Source of the DNA: Nannobrachium achirus
Taxonomy: Eukaryota; Chordata; Actinopteri; Myctophiformes; Myctophidae
Assembly (NCBI GenBank): GCA_963921795.1
Contig: OY997653.1
Location: forward strand, 62,134,635 to 62,198,634
DNA: 64,000 nucleotides
Reading direction: 5' to 3'
Made by a program: the position numbers and the translations under genes. Positions 33,216 to 57,465 of this stretch are shown here, one piece after another; position 1 is the stretch's first letter, and every line of letters begins with the position of its first letter. The notes under the pieces were generated by a model. That model was not told the DNA's origin. It saw only the letters and a program-made list of their open reading frames with translations, and did not search any database.

Positions 33216-34937
33216 ACAGAGAGCGCTCAATGGGAGCACAAGAGGACGAGGCAGGTGATGCTGCTTGCTGCTAGCCATAATAATGCTGACCAACTACTTA
33301 AACATACATTCTAACCAAAGTTTAGGAGGATCATTAAAGATGTATCCCAGTCTCTCAATTACACAGTCATGCTATTACACGTTCAAGTGGGCGCGCACGC
33401 ACGCGCGTTGACTGAGGTCTTTCTTTGATGAGACAAGTCAAATTTGATGCAACGTGTGATGATGAACACTGCCCAGTGCTTTTCTGTTATGCTAGCCTCC
33501 CCTACTTATTATAACTCTATGGCTAGCCTACAACAGTGCAGTTATTTTTATTAAATTGATTAATTGAAACCTATTATAGCCATGGGCCTTTATCTAATGA
33601 AAGATTTATGGGTTGCTGACTTCTGCAAACAGAAAATAACTTTTAGAATTTTAATTAAAAAAGAAAAAGGCTCCACAAACCATGAAGTGAGATGCTTTTT
33701 GAGAGCATCCCAATTGGATTACATATGATAGGCCTATAATATGTATAGCTTACTGGATATATACTGTATATTTTCTGAACTAACAAATAGGCTACCTTAT
33801 GGAATCAGATTGCAGCCAATATAAACAATAGATAGATACTGTATGGGTCGGGATCATTGGGATGGCTGTGGAAAATAGTTGTAGCCTACTGACTATTTGG
33901 GCTATGCCGTTGGAATAGATACATTCAATGAACAAATACAATTAATTACTTCTTTAACACCAGAATGTCCTGGACCAATGATGGGGCCTATAAGTCATAG
34001 GCCTACTACTACTGTATTCCCTCAATCAACTATTATAATTGTTTTTTTAAGGTGGCAACAGATGCATGCTGCTACAGCCATCGCTGACATCTAGTGGACT
34101 TACTAGCTTATAATGTCAATTTTGTTTTAGGCACAAGTAGACTACCTGAATTTTATAATATCATAATGACATTTGATTTTTGTCTTCGAAGTTGTGTGAG
34201 TATAATCAATATCTGTTCAGTGGATAGTTTTCAGAACTAACATTCTATTTAACAAATTTAATCCTGGCGTTATCTATTATGCAGCCCAGTTACCTGAGCT
34301 TGCACTTGATGGGAAAGTCAAAAACCCACATGTATACCATATGGTTCTGGTTAATAAAGGGACAATATGGACAAAACACTTAAGCCCATATTACCTCTAC
34401 TTCTTGTTCCTATATGCACTATATGTATAGCCTACTATATGCCATGTCAGTGGCAATTGTTATTTTTGACCACAGAGTGGGACTGTGGCACTTACATGTA
34501 CAATTAAGCAATATTATCACATTAAGTGCAGCTAGTTTCTATTTTGGTGAATGTCTTTTATGACAAACAAGAAATGAATGTCAGATATCATTTATCATAA
34601 TTCATAAGCCCTGTGTGAGCAGCACACTATACTAACCATATAAAATCATGGAGGGCACACACTGTACATTCCTATCTAACAGAAGAGCTCTATGAGTTCA
34701 TCCTTCTACATCTGCAGGGGTCCAGCTTCCCCCTACCAGGCCCCTCTCAAGCACAGACCGACGCTAACCTCTAACGTGATGGAGGAGGTACCAGCCGAGA
34801 CAGTGCAGAGCGGTCAAGCAGATCAATTGGGACTCGAGGACTTTAAAGAGCGCCCGACTGTAATGGATTGTTATTCTGAGCTCCGCTGCCCGATAGAATT
34901 GATATCTCTGTGCATGAATTGAAAGGATTTCATTGCC
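33216..34937. other. ryr3-fmn1 intergenic region and fmn1 5' flank
   Basis: No clear transposon ends were found. An ORF at 34692-34922 ends 15 nt before the fmn1 start codon and may be an upstream ORF in the 5' UTR. A possible acceptor TCTGCAG lies at about 34712-34718. In-frame TGA at 34920-34922 separates this ORF from the fmn1 reading frame. Confidence 0.4.
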
Positions 34938-36602
34938 ATGGGCAATCATCAGGGCATAAAGACCAAGTATACCCAGGGTTATCCGGATAACCAGGATATT
35001 TCTGCCAGATCTCCCAGCCTTCACACCCGCAGCAAGAGAAGGAGAAGTATGGAGGGTTTTGGCTGTACCAGCACCCTCCAGCACACTCTCAAGCCATCCC
35101 CGGCAACCCCACGGGTAGGACCAAGCAGAAGGAGACTGAAGAAACTGTGGATGATGAGTGCTTCGCCAATGGAGAGCCAGCACCAGGAGTGGGATATAAT
35201 GGAGCAGAGGCCAGCCATCGCCACACCGATACCCAGAAGAAAGATAGTCACAGGGAAAGCCAGATGGGAGAAAGGCTCTGCTTGCATGTTCGGAGATGGG
35301 GAGGAGGAATCCACACTTACAACCCCAACTCTGGGAGTGCAGATGCTATGTCACCCCCCTGCAACAAACACTGAATCCCCCAGCCAGGTAATCTGCAACC
35401 CCCGTTGCCCTGGAGAGATTACTGCTGCTGCAAGAGAAGAGCCTAGCTTCGTTGAATCAGACACAGACCTCTCAGAGTACGACAATGACTTATTCACAAC
35501 GTGCCTCTCTCACCCCAGCCAGGGGGATTATGAGTTTCTAGGCTGCACCGGACAGTCTCTGCATGGGGAGACCCCGAGCCCAGCTCAGCAGGAAAGTTGT
35601 GCAGGTGTTTCGTTTGATGAGAAAAGGGACACACGTCGAGTAATGGGGAAGATTGAGGACGTGGAGGGGATCCTACGCAGGGTCAACCTGGCCACCAGCA
35701 CCGACTCGATCGGTAGCAACAGAGGAGGAGGAAGAACTGACCCGTCGAATCCCGCACCAGACAGATGTGTGTGTGAGGAGGACGCTCCCCAGCTGCACCA
35801 GACAAAACTTCAATATGAGCGTCAAGCTGAACTTTGTTCCGCTTCCCAGCTGCTTCCCACATCTCAAACCGAGAACATCCAGGAGGAGGGTTTAGCGTCC
35901 GGGCAGAATGAGTCTCTTGCAAACGAGGAGCTCGGCACTCTGGGTGAAGCTCTGAGCGAGAGCCTGACTACAGCCCTGAGGAGGGATCGCCAGCAGGGGA
36001 TCAACAGATCAACAGAGCCTCAGCCTGTGAAGGCAGACGGAGAACCTCTCACAGAAACTACAAAGTCACACATTGGCCAGTGGAACTCCACGACACCATG
36101 GAGGCCTCAGAATCAGTTATCAAGTCCTGCATCCAGCTATGCTGGCTGCAATCTGAGCCCCAACCCCTTGAGAGTGCAAAGAAATGACCGTCCCTCCAGT
36201 CTCTTGGGTACCATGGACAACTCACCCATGACCTTTGCAATCCTAGATGGGTCTCCGAGGACATTGAGCAGCTTCAATAGCATATCTCCCATGCCGTCTC
36301 CTCTGTTTTCCTCTCAGTCCAACCTTGAGCCCAGCTACAACTGCTTGTCTCCAGGTGTGAATAATGAACCAAACAAAGCAGGACAGAGGGAATTGAAGGA
36401 GTTAGCAGTGGACAGTGTTGTCTCTCAGCAGGCTGGAAGCGGTTTGACTGACACTGTGGTCACCAGTGTAACAAATACAGACCAAGCAAGTAAATGGCAT
36501 AAAGAGGCCGGGTTGGAGCTGAACCCGAGTAACCAGAACCAGACCCACACCCACAGAAGCATCAATGAGACCACATCTACTTCTGTGCTCTCTTCTGGTA
36601 CG
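34938..36602 (+). CDS. fmn1: Formin 1, long first coding exon
   Basis: The frame opens at ATGGGC in a strong start context (G at -3 and +4), with an in-frame TGA 18 nt upstream. It encodes about 555 residues beginning MGNHQGIK, comparable with the MGN-x-x-G-K start of formin 1 and 2, then a basic patch TRSKRRRS (residues about 31-38), an acidic phrase DTDLSEYDNDLF near 175-186 and a short predicted helix KIEDVEGILRRV. The rest is Ser/Pro/Thr/Gln-rich and probably disordered. Formin 1 nucleates and elongates actin filaments and also links to microtubules and adherens junctions; its N-terminus is poorly conserved and regulatory. The frame stays open to a TAA at 36633. Two donors fit: ACG|GTAAAT (end 36602, phase 0, to join 52145) and TCTG|GTACGG (end 36597, phase 1, to join 43854). 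The fmn1 call comes mainly from the downstream exons and the ryr3 neighbour. Confidence 0.8.
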
Positions 36603-36673
36603 GTAAATAATATACAACATGAATACCAGTGTTAAAAAAAAAATCACACCCGTGTGAACTGAGCGGTGGTTTA

Positions 36674-40785: not shown

Positions 40786-41898
40786 TTAGTTGTTCTGTGC
40801 TGTTATGGCTGCGAGTTCCCACCTGATGTCGTGTGGGAGTCCCAGCTGTTCCAGACCATACCAAATAACTGCTAGCTTGCATAACATCTTCAGGCTAGGA
40901 CCTAAATCTAAGATGTACAGATCATCAGGTTTGTATCCTCCAAAGAGAATGATACGATCTCCAACCATGCAAGAGCACATCCTAGACATCCATGAACACG
41001 ACGGGCCTTTCCCCTTGGGTTTAACCTTCTTCCAGGAGAAGGTCTCTGGATTGAACTTCCACAGATATTTGACGGTCCGTGGCTGAAAAATGTCGTCGCC
41101 ACCAAATATGTATAGCTCTTCGTTGTAGGCAAAGGCTGTATGACGGTCGCATACCTCTGGAAGGACCTGTGAAGAATGCGTGCTCAGCCAGCAGTTGATC
41201 TCCGTGTCAAACACATAGATTGCGTTGTTGTGGCAGATGTGGCCCGTTTGGCCTCCAAACACAAAGATCTTTGTCCCGATGACGGTAGCAGAATGTTTAT
41301 GTATAGCAGGCGCAGGAGTGCCTCTGGTGTTAATGAACGTCCAGACCATTGCTGTCGTGTCCAACTTGTAGATGTCATTGTAATTTCGGAATCCTTCACC
41401 GTTATCCAAGATGAATCCTCCAAACACGTACATAACCTTTCCGATGACACACGCCGAGTGGTAGCGCCTCGCCCCCGGAACAGCCCCAGAAACCTTGGGC
41501 TTGAACCATCTGTGGGTGTCCACGTCAAATGCATAAAGTACTTTGCAGTGAGTTTTCCATGTGTAAGTAAAACCCCCCCAGATGTAGATGATGTCTTCGA
41601 TCAGCACGGCTGTGTGTCCATAGCGCTTTGAGGGAACCTCCAGGAGATGTTCTCTTTCGGTCGTCACCGGGGGCAACTTTGTCCAGTGCAGAGACACTGT
41701 GTTGAAGACGTGCACATCGATCTGATGCACATCAATCTGACCCATGTAGATGCTTGAGATCCTCGAGACCCCGGTACAGCACCCTCCAAAGGCGTACATG
41801 TTCTGTCCCACTGCCACGTTAGCAGTTATCACATTCTGGTAGGTGAGTGCTGACGGTACTCTCTCCAGATGTACCGTCCAGCGCAACATTTCACACAC
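40786..41898 (-). CDS. Kelch-repeat protein, intronless klhdc3-like retrocopy
   Basis: An uninterrupted 370-codon frame encodes a kelch beta-propeller. Several blade motifs are visible: MYAFGGCC, IYIWGGF, MYVFGGF, IFVFGGQ, LYIFGG, IILFGGY, each preceded by a strand and often followed by W. The start MLRWTVHLE, the middle LYAFDVDTHRWF...SGAVPGAR and the end LPHDIRWEL match what I recall of KLHDC3, whose length (about 382) is also close. KLHDC3 is a substrate receptor for Cullin-2 ubiquitin ligases that reads C-terminal degrons. Parental klhdc3 genes have many introns; none here, so it is a retrocopy lying antisense in an fmn1 intron. A weak A-rich stretch (AAAGAAAAAA on the minus strand near 40770) could be a decayed poly(A). 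The intact frame despite heavy divergence suggests selection, but promoter and expression are unknown. Confidence 0.8.
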   Translation of the reverse strand: MCEMLRWTVHLERVPSALTYQNVITANVAVGQNMYAFGGCCTGVSRISSIYMGQIDVHQIDVHVFNTVSLHWTKLPPVTTEREHLLEVPSKRYGHTAVLIEDIIYIWGGFTYTWKTHCKVLYAFDVDTHRWFKPKVSGAVPGARRYHSACVIGKVMYVFGGFILDNGEGFRNYNDIYKLDTTAMVWTFINTRGTPAPAIHKHSATVIGTKIFVFGGQTGHICHNNAIYVFDTEINCWLSTHSSQVLPEVCDRHTAFAYNEELYIFGGDDIFQPRTVKYLWKFNPETFSWKKVKPKGKGPSCSWMSRMCSCMVGDRIILFGGYKPDDLYILDLGPSLKMLCKLAVIWYGLEQLGLPHDIRWELAAITAQNN

Positions 41899-41899
41899 C

Positions 41900-43720
41900 A
41901 GTGCAAGCAGTGGACTTAAATGACTCGCTTCGTTTTTCTTTTCATGTTAAGTCCTGTTGTGCATGCCTGCCGTTTATATTGGTACGGCGGCACAAACATT
42001 CTGGGAAGCTTGGCCAGTCTGTGAGGAGGATGGGGTTGGGTTGGCCAATCACGGAGGACGATACATGTTGATCTCCCTAATAATATGGCATATTGATCAC
42101 CACAGCAACCCCAGACCAGGCTCTGGAAATCCCCTGTGCCATGCAGCATTCTACCAAAAAACGCATTGTTATACATATTGAATTATAGCATCAGTTTGTT
42201 GTTGTACATTATATAAAGTGCATCACAGTTTATTTACAAAGGTCTCTGGAGTGCATTAGTTAACACTAGAGGAGAACGTTCTGAAGCTTGACTCTACCTT
42301 GAAACTTCATTGCCACAAAATGGCCTTCATAAACAAGTTACTATATTATTTTGTTACTGTATAAAGTATTTGGTGTGTGTTAACAGGTAATAGAACAATG
42401 TAAGCCAGCCTGGTCTATATAGGGAGCATTTTTCAGTATTTACTTAATTATTCAGATACATCATTCCTGTTTATTATTTAAATACTGTACTTTGTGTGTA
42501 CCAGTAGTCGTTTAGTTTTTGCCAGCTTCCTTATGTTGTATCTTTGTTACCCTCCTTTAATTAATCCATATTCAGCCTTCTGAATGGTCCCTGACTGACC
42601 AACCAGCAGGTTTTGCTGGTTGTTTGCTAAACATGAGTTTGCTAAAAATTAGGAAAATATCCAGTTTCCTGTCAGATGGGTGGGCCGGCTGGGCCAGAGC
42701 GCTTTTGAAATTAAAGTGGCCCCAGAAAAGGTTGAGAATCACTGTGCTGATGTGGTGTGTTGCTTCCCTTATGGTTAGATCGCCATCCTGTGGAACAAAG
42801 TGACACTGCAATAATGTGTCAAGTGAACAAATTTCTATTCTTATTCTCGACCACGCACATATTCAACTGTTATACTGTATATGCAAGCCTTATTGGCAGT
42901 GTTCACTGTTAACTGAATAAATATGACAAAGATTCAGCTGGCCTTCCCTCCTTGTCCTGACAGGCACCCCTCAGTGACACTACTACACCAACCAACACGT
43001 TTCAAACAGTAGCAAGTAGTCAAGTCAAAAGTATTTACAGTATACAGTATAGCACATTTCATAATTATGACAGGCATAGCAAACTCAATGTTTTTTAAAT
43101 AAAAACCAGAATATGCAACCATGTCATCAACCATGACAAACATAAGGTCATTATATTGTTATACTGACTTTAACCTTTAAAGGCTTGAGAAAAGAGATGT
43201 GTTTTTGTTTATACACTGTAGAAGACCTTAGTTCAAGTGGTAGACACTATAATCTAATATATTCTCAATTTAATTAGCTTTGGGATCTTTATCTGATAAT
43301 CTCTAAGGCTAAGCAGTTCTGTTCAGTGCATATTGAGTGAGGATGGTACAGACATAGCAAGGAAGGACCTGAGCAATGAATTGGTTGCCACAGTGTGTGT
43401 GGTTGTTTCTTTGAAACCTTGTGCACTCTGCCATCAATAATTGCCAAACATCTTCTTATTGTGACCGTAGGTTTCTAATTAGTATAAAAGCCACCAGATC
43501 CTGTCTGTCACTCAAAATCCCTCATTAGTTTGTCACTCTTCCTGTCACTCAAAATCCCTCATTACTTTGTCACTCCTCTTTGTCACTCTTCTGACATCAC
43601 AATATAGCTGACCTGTTCTGACATCACCTCATCCCAGCTCAGCAGGAGGATATAGGATTATCGATTGATAAAATAAAATGATCTTAGGGCCGAAGACATG
43701 ATCTGTCGTGTTGCTGCCGT
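41900..43720. other. fmn1 intron stretch without recognised exon
   Basis: It includes a hAT-like right end near 42690-42755 (ending GGTTGAGAATCACTGTG). No exon or complete mobile element was recognised. Confidence 0.35.
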
Positions 43721-48363: not shown

Positions 48364-49445
48364 ATGTGAACATACAGTAAAGCGTTATACTCTAATTATA
48401 GCCTGCAAACATAATATTTGTGACAAACTCAATTGTTATTATTATATGTGTTAATTTCCATGTTCCATGTCATTTGATTTGCTCAGTGTAAATGAGATGC
48501 AAGTGGGGGCGAGTGTAGGTGGGATTAGACCTTCTACTTACTAATTAGCACAGATTAGAGTGCTGTTCCTCTGTGCCTACTGGGGATGGGACAGACCTCT
48601 GTGTTGTTGTTGTTTCAGAGCCAAATGTTCAAGCTGTTTGCCCTTCTCTCTCCCTGGGTGTGGTGCACTCACTCTGGAAGGTTTTCCTATGCAGTGCAGC
48701 TCACTGATCCCACAGGGTGAGGTCTGACAAACAGTGGCAGCCACCGCAGAGGCCGGCAAATCCCAGCGAGGAAAAGTTTTACCCTCTCGGACGGACCAAT
48801 ACGGAAGACGCCATCTGTTTTCAATTTTGTGGTGACAACCTGTTGGATCTGGACCAAGATGCTACTGCTGTGTTGTTGGTAAACCACAGCAGCAGCAGGT
48901 GCAGGGGAGCTACAGTACACAGACGATACTGGGAAAGGAAATTTGGATGTGAATGAACTTCAGATCTGGTTTACAGCTGTGGTGAAGTACAGTACCTCAC
49001 TCTCCGCTTCTGAGTCACTCTCCAGTGAGCAAAACCACGGAGCTGGGCTTGGCAGACGTTTTTTTTTCCATTACTCTTTGGGAATTCTCTCTTTGGTTAA
49101 AATGAGTGACTAACAGTCATAGTTAGAGCTCGGCTAGAACTTGAAGTAAGAACAAGTAACGGTTGTGAATAGCATTCTCACTGATTTACAACAAACTGGA
49201 GCGAACACAGGTTGGATTTTCTGTGGCGATACCATGGCTTTCTAGGGTTGTGGGTAGACGTCTACTATATTGCTTGAATTGTGCGTAGATTCTATATAAA
49301 ATAAACTGCATGGTCCTGGAATGCATGATTAGATGAAAGGCATTTCTGGTTCAAGGACTGCATGCTTAACACTAGAGAGACTGTAGACTGAGATGTATTG
49401 TTTTCTTGTGTAAGATTATATGCAGAGACTGTGTAAACACAAGTC
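48364..49445 (+). promoter_or_regulatory. fmn1: Flank of second long fmn1 exon; possible alternative promoter
   Basis: No transposon ends were seen from about 48470 on. The stretch precedes an ORF that has an in-frame TAA 12 nt upstream of its ATG and no good polypyrimidine-AG acceptor nearby, which suggests a transcription start here rather than an internal exon. The position of the start is unknown. Confidence 0.35.
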
Positions 49446-51377
49446 ATGGATATGAGCATAGTAAACGCTAACAATGTTGACATCCTGGGAAATAAATCCC
49501 TCCCAGAGGTGCCTTGTTGTAACTCACTCCTGGACAAGTTCCAGTTCTCCACCCTCTTCACTCGCTGCCAACACGAGGGTCAGGAGCCTGCCACCCTGAA
49601 GTTCATCCGGACCCTCTCTGCAGAGGAAACCCCTGAGAACGGTGCTATCATGTTGACTGATGCAAAACCTGACGGCACTTCGAAGCTGAATGGGCATTCC
49701 AGCTTCGGATGTGTTCTGAAGCATTACAAACATTTCCCCGATCGAATCCTATCACCTGTCGTAGGAGAGGTAATGTCATATGGCTCGGTGGAGCCCGACA
49801 TGAATCGAAATGAGGAAACGGGAAGTGACGAAGAGCCAACAGAGGAGGGCGGTAATGATATCAGCCAAACAGAGGATGAAACCAATAAAGAAATACGCAG
49901 CAAGCAGAACATGTCTATGAATGAAAGCAGTCTGCTGGGCTGCAGGATGGAAACTAAGGCCTCAGAGATGTCTAAGAATAACGGGAAAGTGTCCTTAGAC
50001 AACTCAAATCAACATGAGCACACTGGGGGAAACAATGTCAACGACAGCATAGATTATCGCAGCAAAAGCAGAACAGAGGATTTAGCAGTCGACTTAAATG
50101 AATCTCCAGAATGCATTTCAACCAATGGTGGAGAGAAAAATATCCTGCCAATCACAGACAACCGCGATGAGACCAAAGAACACAACCAGGAAGTGACTGT
50201 GGATAACACCGTTCAAAATGTCGACCACAGCGTCGAGAACATGCTCGCTTGTAACAGTGGAGAGGAATCCAGGGACAATGAATACATCATTACAGATGTT
50301 TCTAATTACAGCACGTCAGATATGTGTAGCGACTATGCGCTCGCTGATGCTGGGTGCCGTTCTACCGAGAATGTGATGAAATCTGATACCAGCGAATCCA
50401 AAAGCAGAACGGTAGTGATAACGCTGTCCAGGATAGATCCGGATTCTGAGGAGCACGCCACATCATCAGCAGAAGCAGCCACACCGACTTGGACACATAC
50501 TGAGGAGGACCCTAGCAGAGGGCCTTCTCAATATTATATACCTGTGGGGTTGAAGGTGGTAGGGAAGGACGATGAAGCAGCAGCAGAGAACAGAGACACG
50601 ATTCCAGAAGCAGATTCCATGGCCTGGCGGCCCGGCCCTAAAGACAATTCACCATCACCTACTGTATCCCCAACGGGTGGCCCTCCGCCTGGCTCCACCT
50701 CAACCAGGACCACCTTCTCTCCAGTTTCCCCAACAGCAGACAAGCCTATCCAGCTCCCTGCCCTCTTCAGTGGCCTCAGGGTGCTCAGGAAAGGGGTGAC
50801 GGGACCCGAGCACGATACCGTGGCCCAGATCAGAGCAGCATCGTCCCAGGGAACGAAGAGAGAACTCTTCCCTGAACCCGATAAAGACTCCAGAGCAAAC
50901 CAGAGCGAACCCAAAGGCAACTTCCTGGCCCAAATTTCACAGTTTTTAAATCGCGAGATGAAAGAGGACGGGATGGATGAAAGAAAGTACGAACAGAGGA
51001 ACGAACAGAGGAAGACAGAATCAGAAGAACCCTCAGAAGAGTTGGAATCAGTCGATAGGGAGGCTGAGAGAGAGACGTGCGAGATCACAGAAAAGCATGA
51101 AAATGAAGACAATCGGGAAAGAGAAATCACAAAGGAAGTATGGGAGGCTACAGACTCCTCAGAGGCGCAGGATTCAAAAGCTCCGCTCTCCAGCGCGGAA
51201 GCAGCCTTTGACGCCTTCAAGGCCTTCTTTACCCCCAAACCTCTGAAGAAAGACCCGGAGAAGGTAGACCTTGACGCAGTGAGAAAGAAGATAAGAGGGG
51301 ATAAAGATGTGCTGAAAACCCTCTTTGAGAGAACCTCCAAAAAGACGACGCCGAAGACAAGCCTTTCTGATAGCAAA
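49446..51377 (+). CDS. fmn1: Formin 1, alternative long first coding exon
   Basis: A 644-codon segment starts MDMSIVNANNVDIL with a good context (G at -3 and +4) and an in-frame TAA 12 nt upstream. It ends at AAA|GTATGC in phase 0, which joins exactly to the exon at 52145. Reading through the donor would add only VCIVL and stop. The first 100 residues look ordered (NSLLDKFQFSTLFTRC, ATLKFIRTLS). The middle is acidic and Glu/Asp/Ser/Asn-rich. A proline segment lies near residues 400-430. The last 60 residues are compact and basic (AAFDAFKAFFTPKPLKK, VDLDAVRKKIRGDKDVLKTL). Formin 1 is known for several isoforms from alternative 5' exons, and this fits such a start. It may instead be internal if an upstream acceptor is used. 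Confidence 0.75.
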
Positions 51378-51644
51378 GTATGCATTGTGTTGTGAAACGT
51401 GTACATTTCCATGTGAGCATAGCAATGTATGTAACTCTGTAAGCTAGACATATTACAGTTACAGTACACGTGTCCAGGGACGTGCTGGGCCCCTGAGTCA
51501 GCCCGGGAAAAAGAGTTGGAGAGGCCCTCATTGTTCGCTATAGAGAGAGATCTCTCTCTATAGCGCTGCTGCTACTCAAAGATTTGCCATTTCAGATCAT
51601 GACAAGTGACAAGCCAGTGGGCCAATTACATGAGTTATATTTTG

Positions 51645-56086: not shown

Positions 56087-56443
56087 GAGGACTATGTCCA
56101 GGAGATGTCCAGGCTGCGGGTGGAGCAAGAGGAGGTGGTCTCCTGCCTGGAGCTGGCCCTGGCCCACCTACGCTCCCAGCTGTCCCTGGGCGGAGGAGGA
56201 GGTCTCTGCCGCGGCCGGGACCTCCGCGACGCCGCCGTCTCCACGGAAGACGACCTCGTTCGCAGGGCCTTCCGCACCGTCTGCGTTCAGACGGACAAGG
56301 AGACCTTCGTCAGGGCCGAGGAGGAGGACGAGGAGGAGAAGCCGGGTGGAAGCGGTGGGAGCCCTCAGGCCCGAAAGGAGCCTCCTAAGAAGCTGGACCT
56401 GGCCTCCATCAGCCTCTGCCTGGCTCGACAGAGGGTGGAGGAG
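56087..56443 (+). CDS. fmn1: Formin 1, coiled-coil and pre-FH1 exon
   Basis: The exon has an acceptor TTTTCTTTTCTCAG, is 357 nt long and phase 0 at both ends. It continues the coiled coil (EDYVQEMSRLRVEQEEVVSC, then LELALAHLRSQL). It then carries VSTEDD...FRTVCVQTDKETF, which matches formin 1 ISTDDD...FRNVCVQTDRETF closely, and PKKLDLASISLC, which matches PKKLNISSLSQL. The acidic run EEEDEEEKPGG is less conserved. It ends ARQRVEE at GAG|GTAGGG. That donor is made by a transposon insertion: the last base of the target copy gives G and the first base of the element gives T. Confidence 0.93.
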
Positions 56444-56983
56444 GTAGGGCATTCACCAGATATTCGAATATCAAAGTCACTATTCAACGTTGTTCACCGA
56501 AGTCGATTATTCGCTTTTTTTCTCTCTTTTTTTTTTTCTCTTTAAAAAAATATATAGTTTATAAAGCTTGGCTAGATAGGAAGTCATAAGAATGAGTTGT
56601 CAATGACCCTGGTGGATGAATTTGTTAATGCTCTATACCAGGGGTTCTCAATCCTTTTTCGGCCTTGACCCCCAAAATAAACATATTTGAACTGGGGACC
56701 CCCACCCTGACAAGCACTTGGAATTGTAGGTATTACATTTAATGTGACTCGGTTCCACAGATAAATATTGTGAAAATAGCAGATCTGCATGCTCACAACG
56801 CCTCGTGTTGCGAGGCGTTGTGAGCATGTAGATCGGGCATGTAGTTCGGCTATTTTCACAATGTTCGCCTCTAGCTTACTTAATATTTGACAGTTTGGCC
56901 AGTCCTGTCGAATATTCGACCATTCGAATGCTTTGAGGTTGAATAATTCTAATACTAATAATCACTATTGGTGAATGCCCTAG
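56444..56983 (+). other. fmn1: fmn1 intron created by transposon insertion
   Basis: This 540-nt intron is the 538-bp element plus one base of each target duplication copy. The donor is G (target) + T (element); the acceptor is A (element) + G (target). A TACTAAT sequence (56953-56959), about 25 nt before the AG, is a very good branch-point candidate. The polypyrimidine tract is poor. Removal joins GTGGAGGAG to GAGGAGGTG, adding exactly two codons (Glu-Glu) to the ancestral V-E-E-V-S and keeping the frame. Confidence 0.85.
56445..56982. mobile_element. hAT-like MITE forming an intron, 538 bp
   Basis: The terminal inverted repeats are 14 bp and perfect: TAGGGCATTCACCA at the left, its reverse complement at the right. 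The octamer GGAGGAGG occurs directly before (56437-56444) and after (56983-56990), a perfect 8-bp target duplication as made by hAT transposases. The interior contains a CAGGGGTTCTCAATCC segment, a hairpin module (56770-56859) and GAATATTCG palindromes. No coding capacity. A diverged relative lies at 47938-48363. Confidence 0.92.
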
Positions 56984-57423
56984 GAGGAGGTGTCTCCTGC
57001 CTCGGCGCCGTGTGTCCCAGCATCCCCTCGTCTTCGTCCTGGAGGAGCACCGCCGACCGCAGCAGAATCAGCACCAGCTCCGCCTTCTGCCCTGGCTTCC
57101 CAGAACCTTCCATCAGCCAACAACTCCACCACCACTCAGCCACCCACCGCTCCCCCTCCAGCACCTCCCTGTGTTGCCTCCTCCGTCCCAAACCTCTCAC
57201 AGTCATCTAATGGCCCTCCCCCTCCCCCTCCACCTCCTCCACCACCACCACCACCACCACCACCTCCACCCACACCAGGCTTGGCCCCCCCACCACCACC
57301 ACCTCCCCCTCCTCCTCCAGGTGGGACGTTCACGGAGGACAAGCCCCCCCGAAAGGAGACCGTGGAGCCGTCATGTCCCATGAAGCCCCTGTACTGGACC
57401 AGGATACAGATCCAAGGCAAAAA
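56984..57423 (+). CDS. fmn1: Formin 1, FH1 polyproline exon and FH2 start
   Basis: The exon is 440 nt, entry phase 0, exit phase 2 at AAAAA|GTAAGA. After an Ala/Pro/Ser-rich stretch it encodes two long proline runs interrupted by TPGLA, the FH1 domain that binds profilin-actin. It then reads [16 protein letters not shown], the hallmark opening of the formin 1 FH2 domain ([16 protein letters not shown] in mammals). The proline runs are coded by CCA/CCT/CCC repeats that are themselves microsatellite-like (57218-57320), so their length may vary between alleles. The exon start is defined by the transposon-born acceptor CCCTAG. Confidence 0.93.
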
Positions 57424-57465
57424 GTAAGACGTCGTTTATTGTCGCGGGCCAGCGTCACATGTAAA

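Follow-up and report, generated by a model that had tools for sequence, protein, structure and literature searches.

A hAT-like transposon in a coding exon of a presumed fmn1 gene probably forms its own intron and belongs to an introner-like family

Can a DNA transposon that lands in a coding exon of a vertebrate gene bring its own splice sites and persist as a new spliceosomal intron? The question was raised by a window of 64,000 nucleotides (the whole stretch of DNA that was analysed), which we placed at C16:62134635-62198634 in a 1.66-Gb genome of 564 contigs; genes and genome size point to a ray-finned fish. Within this window a coding exon of a gene that we take to be fmn1, a formin (the name was given from the gene's sequence), is split by a mobile element. 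The initial annotation had proposed that a hAT-like transposon created an intron de novo at this position. The core of this idea is well supported and could be extended to the family of the element through five read-through proteins and a sixth open frame, but the rule for the origin of the splice sites had to be amended and the acceptor CCCTA|G was recognised as only one option. The features of the fmn1 insertion are as follows.

56087..56443, plus strand: 5' part of the fmn1 coding exon, with the frame open from the acceptor ttctcag and ending ...CLARQRVEE at GAG
56437..56444, plus strand: left target-site duplication GGAGGAGG, whose last G is the first base of the proposed intron
56445..56982, plus strand: hAT-like element, non-autonomous, 538 bp, delimited by its borders and by the family copies
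56445..56458, plus strand: left terminal inverted repeat TAGGGCATTCACCA, which with the preceding G makes the donor GAG|GTAGGG
56953..56959, plus strand: branch-point candidate TACTAAT (the family majority is TACTAAA)
56969..56982, plus strand: right terminal inverted repeat TGGTGAATGCCCTA, whose last A and the next G make the first acceptor AG
56983..56990, plus strand: right target-site duplication GGAGGAGG, with in-frame acceptors ending at 56983, 56986 and 56989
56444..56983 (or to 56986 / 56989), plus strand: proposed new spliceosomal intron
56984..57424, plus strand: 3' part of the fmn1 coding exon (pre-FH1, FH1), with the same frame open for 147 codons

The anatomy given initially, i.e., a 538-bp element whose 14-bp inverted ends match perfectly and which, flanked by an error-free 8-bp duplication, splits an open fmn1 exon, proved exact. 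The termini of the element are complementary at 14/14 positions, and the right flank encodes a P/A/S-rich stretch. A formin paralogue from the same genome, located on C20, aligned without interruption across the insertion position, with a weak match on the 3' side. This paralogue (L012:300-1500, minus strand) carries an intron of approximately 1.2 kb within the FH1 region. Upstream in the window, positions 49437-51392 (plus strand) hold an intact open frame of 652 codons, ending near ...FKAFFTPKPLKKDPEKVDLDAVRKKI..., which is probably a large 5' exon of fmn1. Besides, a 570-codon open frame further upstream (34923-36632, plus strand) may represent a further first exon of fmn1 or a gene of its own, and a 386-codon kelch-like open frame lies on the opposite strand within the fmn1 region (40789-41946, minus strand); it has the look of a retrocopy, presumably of a KLHDC3-type gene.

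With the donor GAG|GTAGGG the last exon base is 56443, and with the first acceptor ...CCCTAG the last intron base is 56983; excision of 56444-56983 keeps the fmn1 frame open and adds two Glu residues (EE). The right duplication holds two extra in-frame AG acceptors, 56986 and 56989, the latter of which restores the pre-insertion fmn1 mRNA with zero extra Glu. The TACTAAT motif, named at the outset as a branch-point candidate, is indeed present at 56953-56959, about 25 nt upstream of the first acceptor. Motifs of the TACTAAT type serve as branch points, and splicing generally prefers the first AG downstream of the branch point. The first AG past the candidate is thus the likeliest acceptor, so that the gain of two Glu is plausible for fmn1; the gain claimed initially is in frame with the acceptor 56983, but it is only one of three in-frame outcomes. 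The pyrimidine tract of the fmn1 acceptor is weak. If the element were retained, an in-frame TAA would follow after 33 element codons. We infer the splicing itself, the choice of the acceptor and the fixation of the insertion from these arrangements.

The course of events would be the following. A short hAT-like transposon integrated into the fmn1 exon, and the octamer GGAGGAGG was copied in the process. This target-site repeat, ending in AGG, together with the element start TAGGG would give the left border AG|GTAGGG, a usable donor, and the right border CCCTA together with the second copy of the duplication would give AG acceptors approximately 25-31 nt past the branch-point-like TACTAA. The spliceosome could then remove the element, leaving the gene in frame. 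Likewise, a duplication of the type NNNNNAGG on the coding strand would enable further family members to turn into introns or to take the place of donors already present.

To what family does the element belong? A similarity search with the fmn1 element returned 4,916 first-look candidates, 40 of which were scored. The 39 other scored copies are 86-92% identical to the fmn1 element; the alignment starts at query position 3-9 in 22/39 (the border being at 9) and ends at 545-548 in 33/39 (the border being at 546). Perfect 8-bp duplications were seen in 6/7 further copies that were opened, one of the six sitting in an AC repeat, where a duplication has little meaning. The exact family end TAGGGCATTCAC matched the genome 8,824 times, compared with 14 matches for the reversed control. 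The inverted ends of the fmn1 element and of the family are short and of the TAGGG type, and TAGGG ends are typical of hAT elements. The target consensus of hAT transposons is nTnnnnAn; position 2 of the duplication is T in 40/61 copies that had been preselected for G1 and A6 G7 G8, and the fmn1 duplication does not have this T. Size, ends, duplication and stops in all frames fit a non-autonomous hAT-like family (MITE). One family end lies within a short tandem array at C18:61353669-61354326, with 18 exact pattern matches, mostly at 29 bp spacing.

The fmn1 copy diverges by 5.0% from the majority sequence of 41 copies, in an alignment with 8 unreliable rows. Restricted to well-conserved sites in 33 rows the figure is 3.6%, and differences private to the fmn1 copy amount to 1.8%. 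The eight of 41 badly aligned copies (38-48% apparent divergence) were dropped from the 33-row divergence and from the frame-survival estimates. With a divergence of 1.8-5%, the insertion is not brand new. Over such a time the fmn1 exon alone has a chance of 0.01-0.24 of staying open without selection, and the upstream 652-codon frame, if part of fmn1, a chance of 0.0025-0.02 of staying intact.

If the element is able to be an intron, sister copies are expected in coding sequence wherever the duplication supplies the splice sites. Among the 8,824 exact ends, 165 are preceded by AGG and 8,659 are not. The former comprise 83 ends with G at position 1 of the duplication (G-class) and 82 without it (H-class). 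For the G-class the flanks were read for 63/83 ends; of the remainder, 18 represent one satellite array and 2 are further places. For the H-class, left flanks were fetched for 74/82 ends and right flanks for 12, picked for a coding-looking left flank, and the far end could be located in 10. In 43/61 AGG-class copies the second end was recovered, with no more than two mismatches in the duplication; in 18/61 it was not found. T directly follows the duplication in 27/43 copies, which indicates that AGG|T sites are favoured.

This genome scan, which the initial annotation had named as a check, yielded six copies besides fmn1 inside coding sequence among the AGG-class copies read, each with one frame open across the joined flanks, and five of them with protein evidence:

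L048: pentraxin domain split; Pfam 71.4 bits for the right part alone, 89.1 bits joined
L134/L162, C16:26577563-26578460: DISP1 split; joined flanks align gapless to 6xe6 over 139 residues, E 1.2e-76
L150/L166, C24:7809158-7810050: SRCR domain split; Pfam 30.6 bits for the left part, 92.3 bits joined
L118/L167, C9:59516695-59517590: AURKAIP1 split; E 7.6e-17, with small gaps about the junction
L104/L159, C7:11067334-11068230: FN3 protein split; Pfam 28.4 bits for the left part, 51.7 bits joined in two stretches
L089/L168, C2:57944720-57945620: unnamed open frame split; frame only, no Pfam match

The borders, the duplications, the membership in the family, the frames and the continuity of the protein at the five sister loci are all directly observed. 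The mid-coding copies carry intron-border hallmarks (duplications and inverted ends), with single-base changes in L048, L104 and L118. In all six cases GT-AG removal from AG|GTAGGG to the AG at position 7 of the duplication gives the pre-insertion mRNA, the one exception being a later base change in L118. The position-7 AG is the only AG of the duplication in 4/6 copies (L048, L104, L134 and L150). In the pentraxin copy, the element's own acceptor bases A|G read T|T (CCCTTT), and the sole AG left is the one that restores the mRNA exactly. Hence, the acceptor CCCTA|G favoured initially is present and usable at fmn1, but it is one option only and is lost in the pentraxin gene. A similar amendment concerns the proposed octamer that starts and ends with G. 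The duplication does supply the splice sites, but the first base is not G in 5/5 mid-coding cases from the H-class, so that a G start is not needed and the working rule is a duplication ending in AGG. Such a duplication provides both the acceptor AG and the donor G, and the mRNA is thereby restored exactly. Seven other copies with sense frames (L037, L061, L074, L016, L050, L058 and L054) were not counted, no recognised protein running across the junction. Neither were L132, with a coding left flank in a tRNA-synthetase exon and the far end of the element not found, and L136, with a coding left flank in a FERM exon and only this flank read.

The orientation of the element was 6 plus to 1 minus in the mid-coding copies and 38 plus to 23 minus among 61 G-class donor ends (34 and 4 were sorted by program and the 23 unsorted ends by eye). 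These counts are too few for claiming a TACTAA requirement.

The sister loci bear on two other readings of the fmn1 element. It might be spliced at other sites, e.g., at an internal acceptor AG near 56558, with a part of the element exonised, as a T-rich tract followed by AG is visible within it. The retained sequence, however, has stops in all three frames, and the sister copies keep the protein intact only with the AGs derived from the duplication, which makes this reading very unlikely. The second reading, in which the element stays unspliced and truncates fmn1 and likewise the other genes, leaving null alleles or decaying paralogues, draws on the in-frame stop of the retained element and on the paralogues that some hosts have. 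The AURKAIP1 paralogue on C1 is 66% identical and reads through the insertion position in one frame; with this second copy present, loss of the split AURKAIP1 could be tolerated. On the other hand, DISP1 has one close locus in the genome, the next match, a paralogue on C20 that reads through the insertion position inside a frame of 1,127 residues, being 43% identical. Both fmn1 flanks are open despite the divergence of the element from its relatives, the upstream 652-codon frame, if it belongs to fmn1, is intact against the low chance given above, and 7/7 cases lie in the splice-competent sense. We regard truncation as highly improbable. Removal of the element at the duplication-derived sites is the reading that we prefer.

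How much of this could arise from chance open frames? The control used 136 unique AGG-class flanks without fmn1 and took open frames touching the element within 222 bp. In the sense direction, 139 ORFs were scanned and up to 14 members matched a Pfam family, one local duplicate pair included; two of the matches, to ADP-ribosyl cyclase and DUF3915, were not traced to a locus. In the antisense direction, Pfam matches were obtained for 2 of the 139 ORFs given (162 in total, 23 having been left out as coming from loci already taken as sense-coding). By eye, the exons of these two, tubulin (L035) and FN3 (L023), begin some way from the element, and both look like intronic insertions near an exon. 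The antisense frames of L015, L102, L128 and L050 may be partly coding, judged by eye. In L050 (minus strand), an exon-like frame with WFGDFNFRL, presumably inositol-phosphatase-like, ends about 10 bases from the element, and the copy seems to lie just inside an intron. Among the AGG-class flanks, neither Pfam nor inspection by eye revealed an antisense copy that interrupts a recognised protein.

Without fmn1, the mid-coding insertions thus number 6 sense versus 0 antisense, which is not a matched count and compares left flanks only. The left flanks of L048, L134, L118 and L089, lacking a Pfam match, were judged coding by eye; with left-flank Pfam matches as the sole criterion the numbers are 2 sense (L104 and L150) versus 0 antisense. 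In the 42 G-class loci for which both ends were available, a set that does not include fmn1, joint frames of no fewer than 40 codons in each flank occurred in 9 sense and 5 antisense cases. Frame alone therefore proves little, and since it does not discriminate, the weight rests on the five read-through proteins. The fmn1 and L089 cases lean on the open frame.

Besides the mid-coding copies, nine copies with both ends seen were read as abutting a coding exon precisely at its end, the right duplication being followed at once by what is left of an old donor (TA or TG): L040, L043, L051 and L073 of the G-class, and L093, L125, L143, L147 and L149 of the H-class. Pfam assigned the exons of the latter to F-box (L093), Ig (L125), ligand-gated channel (L143) and ankyrin (L147 and L149), and we take the hosts of L040, L043, L051 and L073 to be KCTD3/SHKBP1, rabenosyn, MCTP and KRR1, respectively. 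We read these nine copies as re-creating the donors that they landed on. L051, L073 and L149 were called borders on the repeat-like or intron-like look of the right stretch; the sense frame is still open over the stretch read, so that these three calls are less secure. The right duplication of L043 closes with A and the left one with G; had G been original, the old donor would be lost and the gene would depend there on the donor of the element. In L093 an extra TAGG before the element start changes the donor to ACG|GTAGGT. That such landings are tolerated is indirect evidence for G|TAGGG working as a donor.

A pattern search for borders (right end, 5 bases, AGGTRAG) hit 6 places, with a coding left flank recognised in only two, L040 and L051; most of the donor-border copies were therefore identified through their left flanks. 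Two more copies, L027 and L036, abut coding exons (matched by Pfam to CYRI and intermediate filament), with the far end of the element not found. A search for left duplications opening with the G of a pyrimidine-tract AG gave 35 candidate acceptor-border takeovers. At L077 (C4:50590606) the sequence to the right of the element looks coding from the duplication onwards, following CCCTACTTCCAG|G, which might represent takeover of an acceptor border.

The donor-border copies give substance to a third alternative, that the fmn1 element landed on the donor of an old 114-nt intron (GAG|GTGTCT ... 57103 AG|AACC) and merely replaced it, with no new intron made. Landings of this kind are common in the family, as the nine other genes illustrate, and a good in-frame acceptor is present 114 nt downstream (57103 AG|AACC). 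Moreover, third-position GC is 0.42 in the first 40 codons right of the element versus 0.84 on the left, and in the formin paralogue an intron occurs beyond this point, within the FH1 region. Against this, the supposed old donor is weak, scoring 4.58 bits versus 7.94 bits for the donor of the element with the same donor matrix, the frame runs open through the 114 nt, and GC reaches 65% over 56991-57200 compared with 37-42% for the nearby introns. The paralogue, weakly on the right side, aligns there without interruption. An old intron is on balance unlikely.

Altogether, these results suggest that the fmn1 intron is probably real and most likely one of a set of new introns derived from one introner-like family. 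Judged from the DNA sequence, it is likely that the fmn1 element makes its own intron and that the family behaves as an introner in this genome. Related sequences lie within several unrelated genes, five of them mid-coding with protein evidence and two, fmn1 and L089, by frame, and would be introns there. The broader proposition also appears likely: a vertebrate hAT-like family would be a working introner that has given at least five, probably seven or more, introns in unrelated genes, in either orientation and at duplications ending in AGG, most with the mRNA unchanged, and has taken over about nine donors. In the features tested, the family appears to work like an introner.

Dissociation (Ds) of maize, a hAT element, reportedly made an intron in an exon (a case said to come from Giroux et al. 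1994). Ds is a plant case, whereas here there are several independent insertions in one animal genome. The published introners of algae and other eukaryotes resemble the fmn1 family in being DNA-transposon-like; many carry inverted ends and target duplications, splice sites are recruited at the duplication, and some add codons, as in an Aureococcus case with an 8-bp duplication (PMC9860276). The same survey places introners in 175 of 3,325 genomes; within animals and land plants only two groups have them, each belonging to the animals, and vertebrates are among the species for which it describes no pattern of gain (Gozashti et al. 2022, PMC9860276). In contrast to the introners described there, the host here appears to be a vertebrate, and most copies (8,659/8,824 ends) lack a preceding AGG.

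A close model is the transposon insertion at AGGT, in which a duplicated AG|G site supplies both splice sites and leaves the coding sequence unchanged (Yenerall and Zhou 2012, PMC3443670). The table for this mechanism holds Oryza, Drosophila, Oikopleura and Zea and no vertebrate case (PMC3443670). The fmn1 family differs from that model in that the element itself contributes the T of the donor, and AGG therefore suffices. As described in the same paper, an intron gained in the jawed-vertebrate ancestor arose from a duplicated AGGT by tandem duplication (Hellsten et al. 2011, in PMC3443670); it is like fmn1 a vertebrate gain, but no mobile element took part. Other reports concern new introns of fish in which pieces of transposons occur, with no demonstration that transposons made them (PMC3151243), new introns without repeat similarity (PMC2746811) and intronization in the human lineage (PMC12124190). 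In the literature searched, chiefly open-access papers, no vertebrate introner or transposon-made intron was found.

Intron gain in vertebrates is an open question. The intact duplications, the many copies, the identifiable hosts and an explicit rule (a duplication ending in AGG and an element start TAGGG) make the birth of introns testable here. The family would also offer a simple account of new introns at AG|G sites, in which the transposon's own target duplication makes both splice sites.
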